DNA of 64,000 nucleotides from an uncultured beta proteobacterium (GTDB taxonomy: Bacteria > Pseudomonadota > Gammaproteobacteria > Burkholderiales > SG8-39): the NCBI GenBank assembly GCA_903859155.1, contig CAIOLO010000162.1:1-64000 (forward strand). The letters run 5' to 3'. Within the stretch, counting starts at the first letter, position 1. Each line of letters opens with the position of its first letter. A program made the translations under genes and the position numbers. The notes beneath the pieces were generated by a model. That model saw nothing but the letters and a program-made list of their open reading frames with translations, did no database searches and was not told where the DNA came from. This document shows positions 45,040 through 49,687 of this stretch, piece by piece.

Positions 45040-45954
45040 ATGGCGGCATCCAAGGACCTGAATCAGTGGCTGGCGCGCCTGGACGCGCTGATGGACAGGG
45101 TCGAGGGCATGTTGCCCGCGCCCGCGGCTCCTCCGGACTGGCATGCCAGTGTGGCCTTTCGCTGGAAGGTCCAGAACGGCAGGCCCGCGCTGCTGCCGGT
45201 GTTGCGCCCGCATCGCGTACGCCTTGCCAACCTGCGTGGTATCGACCGTCAAAAGGCCCTCATCGAGGACAACACGCGGCAGTTCGTCTCGGGCCGGCCG
45301 GCGAACAACGTCCTGTTGACCGGGGCGCGCGGCACCGGCAAGTCATCACTGGTCAAGGCGGTGCTCAACCGCTTTTCGCGCGACGGACTGCGTCTGATCG
45401 AAGTCGACAAGCACGATCTGATATCGCTGACGGACATCGTCGATTTGTTGGCGGAGCGGCCGGAACGATTCATCATTTTTTGCGACGACCTGTCCTTTGA
45501 CGCAACGGAAGCCGCGTACAAGGCGCTCAAATCCGTGCTCGATGGATCGATCTCCGCAGCCTCGGACAACGTGCTGATTTATGCGACCTCCAACCGGCGG
45601 CACCTGATGCCCGAGTTCATGCAGGAGAATCTGGATTATCAGCATCAGGGCGAGGAGATTCACGCCAGTGAAACCGCCGAGGAAAAGATCTCCCTGTCGG
45701 AGCGCTTCGGATTGTGGGTGTCGTTTTACGCCTTTGACCAGGGCGACTACCTGGATATTGCCGGGCACTGGCTGACGGAATTCGGTTGCCGGCAAAGCGA
45801 AGAATCCCGCGCCGAAGCCCTGCGCTGGGCGCTCACGCGCGGCTCGCGCTCGGGTCGCGTCGCCTGGCAATTTGCGCGCGACTGGGCGGGCCGCCATGGC
45901 ACCGGGAAACAAGTCGTCAAACAGCGTTCGCCGCGCGGCGTAAAGCACCGTTGA
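45040..45954 (+). CDS. DUF815-family AAA-type ATPase
   Basis: A 304-residue P-loop ATPase. It has Walker A GARGTGKSSL (about 94-103), Walker B FIIFCDDLSF, an ATSNRRHL sensor-1-like segment and a C-terminal lid. The DUF815 family is widespread in proteobacteria but has no established function. It is usually found near argJ and mutT, as here. Its stop overlaps a TTG that may start the MutT-ThiE fusion (TTGA). The role is unknown. Confidence 0.88.
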   Translation: MAASKDLNQWLARLDALMDRVEGMLPAPAAPPDWHASVAFRWKVQNGRPALLPVLRPHRVRLANLRGIDRQKALIEDNTRQFVSGRPANNVLLTGARGTGKSSLVKAVLNRFSRDGLRLIEVDKHDLISLTDIVDLLAERPERFIIFCDDLSFDATEAAYKALKSVLDGSISAASDNVLIYATSNRRHLMPEFMQENLDYQHQGEEIHASETAEEKISLSERFGLWVSFYAFDQGDYLDIAGHWLTEFGCRQSEESRAEALRWALTRGSRSGRVAWQFARDWAGRHGTGKQVVKQRSPRGVKHR

Positions 45955-46937
45955 AATCGCCCCAAGCGACAAATTCCTCCGTCTTGAATAACCCGGTGGA
46001 GTCCGCTCCGGTCGAGGTCGCGGTCGGCGTGCTGCTGCGCGGGGATGGCGCCGTCTTGCTGGCCCGCCGGCCGCCTTCAAAAGTCTATGCGGGATATTGG
46101 GAGTTTCCCGGGGGAAAGGTGGAACCGGGCGAGACCGTCCGAGCGGCCCTCGATCGCGAACTTGCGGAAGAACTGGGCATCCGGGTTGAAACGGCCTATC
46201 GCTGGATAACCCAGGTGTTCACCTATCCCCACGCGACGGTGCGGCTGAACTTCTTTCGTGTGATCTCCTGGCAAGATGAGGTGCATGCCATCGAACACGA
46301 CGGCATGAGTTGGGAGCAACCGGACCGGGTCGGGGTTGCACCGCTGCTGCCGGCCAATCACCCGGTGCTGCGCGGTTTGGCCCTGCCTGCGGAATATGCG
46401 ATCACGCAGTGTACGGATCTGGGAATCGATGCGCAGATTGCGCGGCTGCGCGAGCGCATCGAGGGCGGCCTGCGCCTTGTTCAGGTACGGGAGCCGCGGA
46501 TGGCGGAGGCCCCCAGGGAGGCGTTCCTTGCGCGTGTGCTCGAGGTGGCAAGACCGAGCGGCGTGCGCATTCTGGTCAACGCCGATATCGGTCTGGCGCA
46601 GCGCATGGGTGCCGACGGCGTGCATCTGACTTCGCGGCAACTGGGTACGTTGCACTCGCGTCCTGACCTGCCATGGGTGGGCGCATCCTGTCATGATCGC
46701 GCCGAGTTGCGCGCCGCTGAAAAACTGGGGGCGGATTTTGCAGTGCTGGGCTCGGTGCTGCCGACGCAGACGCACCCCGGCGTCGCACCGTTGGGCTGGG
46801 AGCGCTTCGAGTCGATTGTGCAAGAGGCCGCGATTCCGGTGTACTCGCTCGGAGGCATGAGACCAGGCGACCTGCAAACGGCCTGGAGCCGCGGCGGCCA
46901 TGGCATCGCGATGCAGCGGGCCTCGTGGGACCGCTAG
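45951..46937 (+). CDS. Nudix hydrolase (MutT) fused to a thiamine-phosphate-synthase-like domain
   Basis: A two-domain protein of about 328 residues. Residues 21-145 are a MutT-like Nudix domain; the Nudix box begins GGKVEPGETVRAALDRE and ends EELGI. Residues about 155-320 are a ThiE/TenI-type TIM barrel (LRLVQVREP, GADGVHLTSRQL, GASCHDRAEL, ADFAVLGSV, YSLGGM). MutT clears 8-oxo-dGTP; the attached barrel is of uncertain activity. The fusion is common in beta- and gammaproteobacteria. TTG 45951 overlaps the DUF815 stop; TTG 45984 and GTG 45996 are alternatives. There is no clear ribosome site. Confidence 0.9.
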   Translation: MKSPQATNSSVLNNPVESAPVEVAVGVLLRGDGAVLLARRPPSKVYAGYWEFPGGKVEPGETVRAALDRELAEELGIRVETAYRWITQVFTYPHATVRLNFFRVISWQDEVHAIEHDGMSWEQPDRVGVAPLLPANHPVLRGLALPAEYAITQCTDLGIDAQIARLRERIEGGLRLVQVREPRMAEAPREAFLARVLEVARPSGVRILVNADIGLAQRMGADGVHLTSRQLGTLHSRPDLPWVGASCHDRAELRAAEKLGADFAVLGSVLPTQTHPGVAPLGWERFESIVQEAAIPVYSLGGMRPGDLQTAWSRGGHGIAMQRASWDR

Positions 46938-46941
46938 CTGG

Positions 46942-47005
46942 GACCGCCGTCGCATAAAGCTTGCGCCGGCTGTTGGAAGCAGCGCGGCGAGCTTTTGGCC
47001 GCGCG
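46942..47005. repeat. Tandem repeat, copy 1 (64 nt)
   Basis: This unit is identical to 47018-47081, with a 12-nt spacer (period 76). It contains the dyad GCGCGGC/GCCGCGC around a 9-nt loop and AAGCTT-type ends, so it can fold into a stem. It begins 4 nt after the mutT-thiE stop. Confidence 0.92.
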
Positions 47006-47017
47006 GTCGTTGTAATA

Positions 47018-47081
47018 GACCGCCGTCGCATAAAGCTTGCGCCGGCTGTTGGAAGCAGCGCGGCGAGCTTTTGGCCGCGCG
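47018..47081. repeat. Tandem repeat, copy 2 (64 nt)
   Basis: An exact second copy of 46942-47005. It ends 7 nt before the yacG stop on the other strand, so the pair fills the space between two convergent genes. A REP/BIME-like extragenic repeat or a transcription-end element is plausible. Confidence 0.92.
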
Positions 47082-47088
47082 ATCCTGG

Positions 47089-47289
47089 CTAGTTGCCTTC
47101 CCCGTTTTGCGTGGGAGGCGCGCCTTCTTCGGCTTCCTCATGCGGTTTCGCGACCCGGTATTTCTCTGTGGCCCAGGCGCCCAGGTCGACGAGTTTGCAG
47201 CGTTCCGAGCAGAACGGCCGGTAAGGTGAATTCGCCTCCCATCTGACCTGGCAGCAGCAGGCGGGACAACTCACGCTGAGCACGTTCAT
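47089..47289 (-). CDS. yacG: DNA gyrase inhibitor YacG (zinc-binding)
   Basis: A 66-residue protein with the YacG zinc motif C8-x2-C11 ... C27-x3-C31 ([17 protein letters not shown]). In E. coli YacG binds GyrB and inhibits gyrase. The tail is acidic and unstructured. ATG 47289 is used ([11 protein letters not shown]); a longer start at 47325 is possible. The ATG overlaps the stop of a 24-codon mini-ORF that begins 12 nt after the coaE-zapD stop. Confidence 0.9.
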
Positions 47290-47360
47290 GCGGGCCGTCC
47301 GGAGGTGGGCCGGGAGCTCGAGCAACTCGGCAGCAAGCCTGGGAGGTCGGGGGATTTCAT
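47286..47360 (-). other. 24-codon mini-ORF between zapD and yacG (candidate relay)
   Basis: On the minus strand an ATG (47360) 12 nt after the zapD stop opens a frame ([18 protein letters not shown]...) that ends in a TGA overlapping the yacG ATG as ATGA. It fills most of the 83-bp gap. No homology is recognised. Confidence 0.3.
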
Positions 47361-47372
47361 CGCGCCGCGGGG

Positions 47373-48824
47373 CTAAAGGTTGCAGAAGCTCAGCTCGAAA
47401 TCAATATCCGACTCGACAACCCGCGGGCGCGGTTCGATGCCGGACATGACGAAACGGATATTGAGTGCGTACTTGTTGGCGCTGATCTCGGGTATGCACT
47501 GCAGATCCAGCGACAGCTTGATCCGCACCATCTGTGCCACCTTGCCCCCCAGCATCTGCGAGAAAGCGCCCTGCCGCGCGACCACCCTGGCGGGCTTGCC
47601 CCCTTCGCGCAGCAGCCGCAGCACAATGGCGCCGCCGTCGCGAATAGGATAAAGAGGATTGATCCATGCATTCAGATCGGCAAGCCGCGATTCGTTGTCG
47701 CGGTGCTGCCAGTAATGGTAGGAGGGCAGATCGAATTCGCAGGCGCCGCCCGGAATGCCGGTGCGCTGCTTGATACTCATGAGCCACTCGTTTTCCCGAA
47801 GATACTGGCCGATCTTTCCGGTCATCGCGAACAGCGAGTGACTGGCCTGCTCGATGTCGGCGAGCACTTGACTGAGAGCATCCTCGGCAATTTCCGGATT
47901 ATTGCGAAACAGGGATAGCACCTGCTTCTGGCGCTCCAGTTCCTGCAGCAAATCGGATTTCATATCCGCGCGGCTGGCCACCTCGAGTATCTCGAACAGC
48001 GTCAACAAAGTGATGTGATGCTCGAGGGGATCACTCTTGGCGAGAAAAAACTGCACGCGGGCGAAAAGAGTTTCAAGCCGCAGCAAGGTGCGCACGCGTT
48101 CGTTCAGCGGATATTCGTAGACAATCACAGGCGCCGCTGGGTTAAGGGAACCCCGTGATTCTCGCCTATTCTCGGGGGCGCTGGCTAGCCCCCCGGTGTG
48201 TGAAGTCGTGCGATTTCGGCCCGATTCCCGGGATTCCGCCAGGTAGCGCTGGTGCAACGACTCAACCTTCGCATCGATGCTCTCGAGGTTGTCCTCGTTG
48301 AAAAGCAGGTCATCCGCTCGGGAAAGGCGGTTTTCACGGCTCGCCTGGGTCGCCATGATGCGTCGCACTTCGTCCTCGCTCAGTCCATTGCGCGCACGGA
48401 CCCGCTCCACCTGTGTCGACTCTTCGCAATCGACCACCAGGATGCGGTTGAAGCGCTCGTGGCCCATCCCGGTCTCCACCAGGAGCGGTACAACCTGGAT
48501 CACGTAAGGGCTGGCCGCGGCGGCAGTCTGCCGGGCACTTGCCAGGCCGATGAGTGGGTGCAGGATGGACTCGAGCTTCTGCTTGGCCCCGGCGTCGGTG
48601 AATGCGAGTTGGCGCATCTGCGAGCGGTCCAGCGCACCGTCCGCTGCAATCATGGCGTCGCCGAAAGCCTCCCGAATGGCCCGAATCGCCTCGCCGCCGG
48701 GTGCGGTCAGCGCGTGCGCGATCAGGTCGCTGTCGACCACGGCGACACCTCGCCTGGCAAATGCCTGGGCCACCACGCTCTTGCCGCTGCCGATGCCGCC
48801 GGTGAGACCGATGAGGTAGGGCAT
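47373..48824 (-). CDS. coaE-zapD: CoaE-ZapD in-frame fusion: dephospho-CoA kinase joined to Z-ring protein ZapD
   Basis: One uninterrupted 483-codon frame covers two genes that are normally separate. Residues 1-197 are dephospho-CoA kinase (P-loop [11 protein letters not shown], 7-17; [11 protein letters not shown]). Residues 198-232 are a polar Ser/Arg/Gly-rich linker. From residue 233 the frame encodes a full ZapD ([19 protein letters not shown] to the end, about 251 residues), which bundles FtsZ. A GTG at 48128 could still start a separate ZapD, but no ribosome site precedes it. The linker DNA holds a GGGGGC/GCCCCC dyad and looks like former intergenic DNA. The coaE start overlaps the pilD stop (TGATG). 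A sequencing indel that hides a stop cannot be excluded. Confidence 0.85.
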
Positions 48825-49687
48825 CAGTAAATCAGCTTCAGGTACTCGTGTGTCAGTGGCGGCCCCCAGAACAGCGCCACCGCGCCCGCGCCGGCAAGAT
48901 AGGGGCCGAAAGGTATCGGAACCTCGCGGCCATGGCGCGTGAGCACGATCAAAAGGATACCCACCACCGCGCCGATGACCGAGGAGGCGAGAATCACCAG
49001 GGGCAGCATTTTCCAGCCGGTCCAGGCCCCTATCGCGGCAAGCAGCTTGAAATCGCCGTACCCCATGCCGTCCTTGCCGGTTGCAAGCTTGAATAACCAG
49101 AACACGCTCCACAGGAAAAGGTAGCCCGCGGCTGCGCCGATCACGGCCGACTGGAGATCCACGAACGTACCCGGGATGTTGACGAGCAAGCCCAACCAGA
49201 GCAGCGGCAGGGTAATGGCGTCCGGAAGAAACTGGGTGTCGAAATCGATGAAACAAGCTGCTATCAAGGCGCACAGGAATACGATCGCACCGAGGCCGGC
49301 CAGCGTGGCGCCATAGCGGGTTGCGCAATAGGCCACGCCGATACCGGTGAGCAGTTCGACCAGCGGATAGCGCACGCTGATCGGGGCGCGGCACGCGGAG
49401 CATTTTCCCCTGAGCCAGACCCAGGACAAGAGGGGGATGTTTTCCAGCACGGTAATCTGGTGCCCGCAGGACGGGCATCGCGAGCGCGGAACCGCCAGGT
49501 TCATCGGGGCCGCCGCAGGGACCGGTTCGCCGCGCAATTCGGCGCACTGCGCGGCCCAGTCGTGCTCCATCATCCGGGGCAGGCGGTGAATCACCACATT
49601 GAGAAAGGAACCCAGCGCCAGGCCGAGCACCAAGCCAAGCCACAGGAGGGCCGTAACCGAGGAGAAAAACAGGGCAGCGTCAGACAA
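48824..49687 (-). CDS. pilD: Prepilin peptidase/N-methyltransferase PilD
   Basis: A 287-residue membrane aspartyl protease that cleaves and N-methylates type IV prepilins. The N-terminal zinc motif has C71-x2-C74 and C96-x2-C99. The catalytic aspartates are in FIDFDTQFLPD (about 148) and GMGYGDFKL (212). It starts at TTG 49687, supported by AGGAGG 6 bp upstream. It overlaps coaE by 1 bp. Confidence 0.95.
   Translation of the reverse strand: MSDAALFFSSVTALLWLGLVLGLALGSFLNVVIHRLPRMMEHDWAAQCAELRGEPVPAAAPMNLAVPRSRCPSCGHQITVLENIPLLSWVWLRGKCSACRAPISVRYPLVELLTGIGVAYCATRYGATLAGLGAIVFLCALIAACFIDFDTQFLPDAITLPLLWLGLLVNIPGTFVDLQSAVIGAAAGYLFLWSVFWLFKLATGKDGMGYGDFKLLAAIGAWTGWKMLPLVILASSVIGAVVGILLIVLTRHGREVPIPFGPYLAGAGAVALFWGPPLTHEYLKLIY

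Follow-up and report, generated by a model that had tools for sequence, protein, structure and literature searches.

A recurrent coaE-zapD gene fusion in an uncultured betaproteobacterium and its relatives, with a candidate zapD promoter inside the coding sequence

The locus described here raises the question of whether a dephospho-CoA kinase, CoaE, and a cell-division protein, ZapD, are made as a single chain, and whether ZapD is then still made on its own. A coaE-zapD(yacF)-yacG operon with pil genes was described for Neisseria, and the likeness extends to the neighbours pilC, pilD, coaE and zapD and to the same two proteins; in the passages of PMC4498754 that deal with the operon, however, coaE and yacF appear as separate genes, whereas in the source genome they share one frame. 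This frame lies on the minus strand of a 64,000-nucleotide stretch of DNA from an uncultured beta proteobacterium (hereafter, the window), and its parts are as follows.

47373..48824, minus strand: coaE-zapD fusion gene, 483 codons plus a TAG stop
48231..48824, minus strand: CoaE (dephospho-CoA kinase) part, residues 1-198, P-loop intact
48129..48230, minus strand: linker, residues 199-232, predicted to be disordered
47376..48128, minus strand: ZapD part, residues 233-483, with profile matches and solved-chain matches

The frame runs without a stop from the ATG at 48824 to the TAG ending at 47373, and profile searches of the 483-amino-acid chain placed both domains above curated cut-offs: residues 3-180 matched PF01121 (CoaE) with 190.5 bits against a cut-off of 27, and residues 248-457 matched PF07072 (ZapD) with 273.3 bits against a cut-off of 27. 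The NCBIfam models TIGR00152 for CoaE (152.2 bits; cut-off, 65.55) and NF003656 for ZapD (357.8 bits; cut-off, 213) were also exceeded. The CoaE half resembles the solved chain 4i1u over its length (E = 2.2e-58) and also matches chain 2f6r, and the ZapD half resembles 5dko over residues 233-481 and 5imj, 5koa and 5gnp over residues 234-481 (E = 1.2e-37 to 1.8e-37). The AlphaFold model contains two confident domains (mean pLDDT, 89.6; pTM, 0.55), with pLDDT below 50 at residues 210-228 in between, and the linker is thus predicted to be a flexible, disordered joint. These data bear out the original prediction that CoaE and ZapD are encoded by one open frame; its coordinates were correct, with the GTG at 48128 being residue 233, and a complete CoaE is joined to a complete ZapD, although the linker comprises 34 residues rather than the 35 then given.

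In the source genome (98.7% complete, 172 contigs), PF01121 and PF07072 each have one match, both in the fusion frame, so that the sequenced part of the genome has no second gene from which free CoaE could be made, and the CoaE part has no stop of its own. Being the sole copy, the CoaE of the fusion is likely to be active as a kinase. In an alignment of 11 fused genes of the source family, the P-loop is invariant except for I11, which is V in one row, and S16 is N in two rows.

A search of close relatives for the same frame found it in ten other genomes of this family. Among 98 family genomes, 92 had a ZapD match, and the 90 with coaE and zapD in one locus were scored; the eight excluded were six without a ZapD match and two (G075 and G099) with a partial one, and for G061, with two ZapD matches, one locus was taken. 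The genes were fused in 11 of the 90, from four genera, and separate in 79. Fused members include all three genomes of the source genus (G000, G001 and G002), G005 (g4), G012 (g11) and six of genus g6 (G007, G032 and G079-G082); G030 (g4) and G078 (g6) gave no match to CoaE or to ZapD in the sequence searched. In a genome collection, 75 of the 80 best loci were separate and five were fused, and these five, all among the 11, come from metagenome assemblies of different samples (MEQV01000019, CANIEV010000236, CAMCYY010000238, CANKAJ010000085 and CANJRC010000094). Five metagenome bins (L126, L136, L158, L165 and L177) are titled 'Bordetella parapertussis' and look like mislabelled environmental betaproteobacteria. 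ZapD matched once in each of the 11 fused genomes, and CoaE matched once in the source genome and in nine of the other ten; the second CoaE match of G080 lies on another contig and is possibly contamination.

The fused linkers measure 96, 102, 126, 129, 141, 144, 150, 162 or 288 nucleotides, all of which are multiples of three, and all are open. At the separate loci coaE ends before zapD, none of the 79 is open in frame, and the phases are spread 23/30/26. Dinucleotide shuffles of the source linker stay open in 56% of cases; an open frame by itself is therefore unremarkable in such GC-rich DNA, and the weight rests on conservation. A chance frame was rejected on this ground, since the frame is conserved across relatives.

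Between coaE and zapD, the separate-gene relatives of the family carry a conserved pattern, TTGTCA-N17-(C/G)AGAAT, which in a looser form, TTGTNN-N17-(C/G)A(G/A)AAT, lies mostly 24-55 nucleotides upstream of the GTG start. We found counterparts of both hexamers and of this start within the fusion gene, as follows.

48182..48187, minus strand: -35-like hexamer TAGCCA, counterpart of TTGTCA in separate-gene relatives
48158..48163, minus strand: -10-like hexamer GAGAAT, 18 nucleotides after TAGCCA and 29 nucleotides before the internal start
48126..48128, minus strand: internal GTG, at the same place as the zapD start of separate-gene relatives

The strict pattern was present in 69 of 78 separate intergenic regions versus 0.35% of shuffles, and in nine of 11 fused linkers versus 0.05%. 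The separate loci number 78 rather than 79 in the motif and start-codon counts because G088, counted as separate, was dropped there; the zapD of this relative (locus L087) has an in-frame TAG near its start, which may be a real loss or a sequencing error. Inside the coding sequence of the fused genes the pattern takes the form TAG(G/C)CA-N18-GAGAAT, with TTGTCG in G012, and the strict motif is degenerate in G001 (TATCCA) and G005 (GACAAT). Element scores were 13.7-17.2 in nine fused genes, 8.9 in G001 and 10.5 in G005. When amino acids were kept fixed and codons were resampled according to the usage of each gene, few recoded linkers scored as high as the real one (P = 0.0003 to 0.016 in ten of the 11 genes; 0.052 in G001). 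The element matches 8 of 12 positions of the generic sigma-70 consensus and was recognised only via the relatives; a scan of the linker with that consensus at a threshold of 9 of 12 returned no promoter.

At the place of the old zapD start, all 11 fused family genomes have a start-capable codon (GTG in four, TTG in seven), and free ZapD from the GTG at 48128, which the original prediction had envisaged beside the fusion, is likely on this account. No clear Shine-Dalgarno sequence was seen by eye ahead of the internal start. Five of the 78 separate loci have GTC at the presumed zapD start, and the true start of those five must lie elsewhere.

In the linker, CTA, a rare Leu codon here (0.01-0.09 of Leu codons), is retained in 9/9 rows with Leu at that place, CGA in 8/9 rows with Arg, and TTG at the old start in 7/7 rows with Leu. 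In the domains, among columns with at least seven rows carrying the residue, a single codon was kept in none of 46 Leu columns and in one of 36 Arg columns, the codon in that Arg column being a different one from the rare codons tested. Complete retention of one codon thus does occur, if rarely, and the relatedness of the 11 rows means that they do not count as independent observations. Synonymous divergence (pS) is 0.2-0.7 even within genera, so that shared descent alone does not account for the freezing of these codons while the surrounding synonymous sites are far diverged. At the protein level, G212 and S223 are invariant and E222 nearly so in the 11 rows (consensus GL...GRES), and these conserved residues are the ones spelled by the promoter-like DNA. 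The pN and pS values of the linker, 0.27 and 0.39 for G000 and G002, give a high ratio, which indicates that linker residues are weakly constrained.

In g19, whose genes are separate, the TAG stop of coaE forms the first half of the TAGCCA hexamer, and G013 (g12, also with separate genes) carries an identical module, TAGGCA-N18-GAGAAT, in non-coding DNA. Most fused genes read the counterpart bases with a shift of one base, as the codons CTA GCC or CTA GGC. The stop within the hexamer, together with the shifted reading, suggests how the fusion arose: the coaE frame would have slipped past its stop at the birth of the fusion, the intergenic stretch would have become read in the coaE frame, and the zapD promoter would have stayed put. 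On the evidence, the linker DNA appears to be the zapD promoter, retained, and keeping it in a stretch turned coding would place this DNA under a double constraint, that of the open frame and that of the promoter. The intergenic-like look of the linker had earlier been taken as a possible sign that a stop was recently lost; the look stands and reads as a retained promoter, whereas recent loss is contradicted by the presence of the fusion in four genera and of its equivalents in two other families.

These equivalents came from a wider survey of the class. ZapD was found in 63 of 94 genomes of one class sample and in 161 of 229 of a larger, overlapping one, and these samples gave fusions in G343, G377 and G396, among the matches listed. 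In family f103, 11 of 12 ZapD-bearing genomes were fused, and in f137, two of three (loci L218-L228, L230 and L231; L214 and L215 also belong here). CoaE above the cut-off occurs once per genome in the 15 genomes of both families. None of the 13 fused genes has ATG, GTG or TTG where zapD used to start; three (L219, L225 and L231) have GTG one or two codons after this place, and 12 of the 13 have one of these codons elsewhere, within the linker or among the first codons of ZapD. The loss of the old start here indicates that making free ZapD from it is not a general requirement. Shuffled f103 linkers stay open in 1.4-6.2% of cases in five of 11 rows and in 12-52% in the other six, and the short f137 linkers in 38% and 91%, so that an open frame alone is weak proof in these families. 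The sole separate f103 genome, G394 (L217), falls inside a group of fused genomes with starred support. Its zapD frame has no stop in the 68 codons ahead of the ZapD match, through the former linker, and the locus has the look of a fusion that a frameshift has broken in two, or else of an assembly error.

Elsewhere, no fusion was seen among the matches listed, of which mainly frames long enough for both proteins were examined. In an order sample with ZapD in 182 of 200 genomes, the seven longest other frames listed (370-563 amino acids) include no fusion, and coaE lies in another frame at those seven loci. Nor are the class frames of G376 (352 amino acids), G517 (429) and G423 (379) fusions; in 20 class loci including G517 and G423, 18 had both genes, none fused, and two had no CoaE in the stretch taken.

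Taken together, the comparisons make it probable that the source family carries a conserved, functional gene fusion that yields two proteins, CoaE-ZapD and free ZapD. Transcripts from upstream would be translated into the CoaE-ZapD chain, which alone supplies dephospho-CoA kinase in the source genome, and the internal promoter TAGCCA-N18-GAGAAT with the old start GTG at 48128 would give free ZapD; we infer expression of both products. ZapD is a dimer in known structures, and mixed dimers of fusion and free ZapD could therefore carry the kinase on the Z-ring, which would place part of the kinase there, and free ZapD would preserve bundling capacity beside them. The kinase would be attached to most or all of the ZapD in f103 and f137.

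The strongest competitor holds that the CoaE-ZapD chain is the sole product also in the source family, with the promoter remnant and the GTG or TTG as inherited relics. The fusions of f103 and f137 seem to be of this kind, with 0/13 start-capable codons at the old start, although 12/13 have one elsewhere, and element scores in the source family fall below the median of the separate relatives (8.9-17.2 vs. 19.7). We nevertheless regard this account as unlikely for the source family, in which rare codons are frozen in the DNA despite pS of up to 0.7 elsewhere and the old place is start-capable in 11/11 genomes. Less probable still is a chain that is made and then cut in the linker into the two ordinary proteins, the frame having no meaning at the protein level. 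A linker that is predicted to be disordered, variable and weakly constrained in its amino acids does resemble a protease-accessible stretch, but the frame has been kept although the linker changed in length many times, the fusion appears repeatedly on separate branches, and no conserved linker residues were seen beyond those spelled by the promoter-like DNA.

A programmed +1 frameshift at GGG-CTA-G, by which ribosomes would read the old coaE stop TAG and make free CoaE too, is very improbable. TAG[GC]CA is kept in 9/11 fused genes and CTAG[GC]C in 8/11, the source genome has this TAG in the +1 frame immediately behind GGG GGG C, and CTA is rare among Leu codons. However, no stop would be met in G001, which has CTATCC, or in G012, from which the sequence is absent, and the preceding codon is GGA in G032, G079 and G081, on which a tRNA could not re-pair in +1; reading the bases as a -35 hexamer accounts for these exceptional genomes. 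Deletion of a stop by an assembly or sequencing error, for which the metagenomic origin of the fused records might speak, is counted as refuted, since the frame occurs in eleven genomes whose linkers differ and which come from different samples.

The two-protein reading of the source family leaves the number of origins to be considered. A single origin of all fusions, tested as one clade of the 24 fused rows of three families with their separate members left out, was rejected (AU p = 0.000293) at a cost of 355 log-likelihood units. A clade of f103 and f137 was also rejected, both with their separate members included (AU p = 0.00202) and without them. When 18 further separate-gene class genomes were added, f137 grouped with the separate-gene genomes G347 and G517 (95/89), apart from f103. 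At least three gains of the fusion are favoured by parsimony, and one very old fusion with many losses would be formally admissible. Within the source family, a single origin was compatible with the CoaE and ZapD tree (AU p = 0.304) and with a tree of four genes (p = 0.255 with all 11 as one clade and 0.165 when G012 was left out), and the PilD and PilC tree placed ten of the 11 fused genomes together at 81/68, with G012 outside. The position of G005 varies, being with g1 (once also g11) in three trees and with g19 in another. In this family the fusion may have arisen once and been split again in g12 or g19, or it may have arisen twice.

When fusion of two genes recurs, this is classically read as an indication that their products work together, and we know of no reason for the adjacency of coaE and zapD in operons. 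Dephospho-CoA kinase is likewise fused to another protein in the bifunctional eukaryotic CoA synthase (PPAT-DPCK), to which the matched chain 2f6r belongs and in which the N-terminal partner is the enzyme that acts just before it in the pathway; the UPF0157 domain of mycobacterial CoaE is C-terminal, and the long form of Salmonella SpaO is not known to combine two genes that are separate elsewhere. As presented in PMC2765170, the mycobacterial enzyme too joins dephospho-CoA kinase to a second domain, UPF0157, which is assigned a role in enzyme folding and is not a cell-division protein as ZapD is here. The C-terminal part of SpaO is made both in a long chain and alone, and the forms bind each other, according to PMC13059759; these forms offer a model for fusion plus free ZapD, although the proteins are unrelated. 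We found no report of a CoaE-ZapD fusion in the open-access literature searched. The gene neighbourhood, a CoaE with another added domain, and pairs of long and C-terminal-only proteins are known.

The fusion unites an essential cofactor enzyme with an FtsZ-bundling protein. A bolder proposal, which we put forward as doubtful, is that CoaE, the last enzyme of CoA synthesis, has repeatedly been tied to the Z-ring via ZapD, coupling the activity or position of the kinase or the level of (dephospho-)CoA to division. On this proposal, the recurrence would indicate that CoaE and ZapD are linked, physically or through regulation, also where the genes are merely neighbours. The adjacency of coaE and zapD becomes testable in this way, by asking whether CoaE binds ZapD or FtsZ and whether CoA status acts on the Z-ring. 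Separate genes, fusions with an internal promoter and start, and fusions with the old start erased form a natural series, and the f103 and f137 fusions, which have lost the old start, may be the better systems for fusion-only cells.

Upstream and downstream of the fusion, the window contains the following gene and several smaller features.

48824..49687, minus strand: presumed pilD-like prepilin peptidase gene, directly upstream of coaE-zapD

The stop codon of this presumably pilD-like gene shares one base with the coaE start, and its name draws partly on the operon set out in PMC4498754. A PilD relative is present in 107 related loci. Directly downstream of the fusion lies a small Cys-rich frame (47089-47325, minus strand), which presumably resembles YacG and would complete the order coaE-zapD-yacG. 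Between its end at 47089 and a gene ending at 46937 sit two identical 54-base direct copies (46952-47005 and 47028-47081), 76 bases apart from start to start, with no third copy in the window. The nearby frame at 45786-46937 on the plus strand has two domains, as judged by eye from the translation, and we assume its halves to be Nudix (MutT-like) and thiamine-phosphate-synthase-like, a known kind of pairing.
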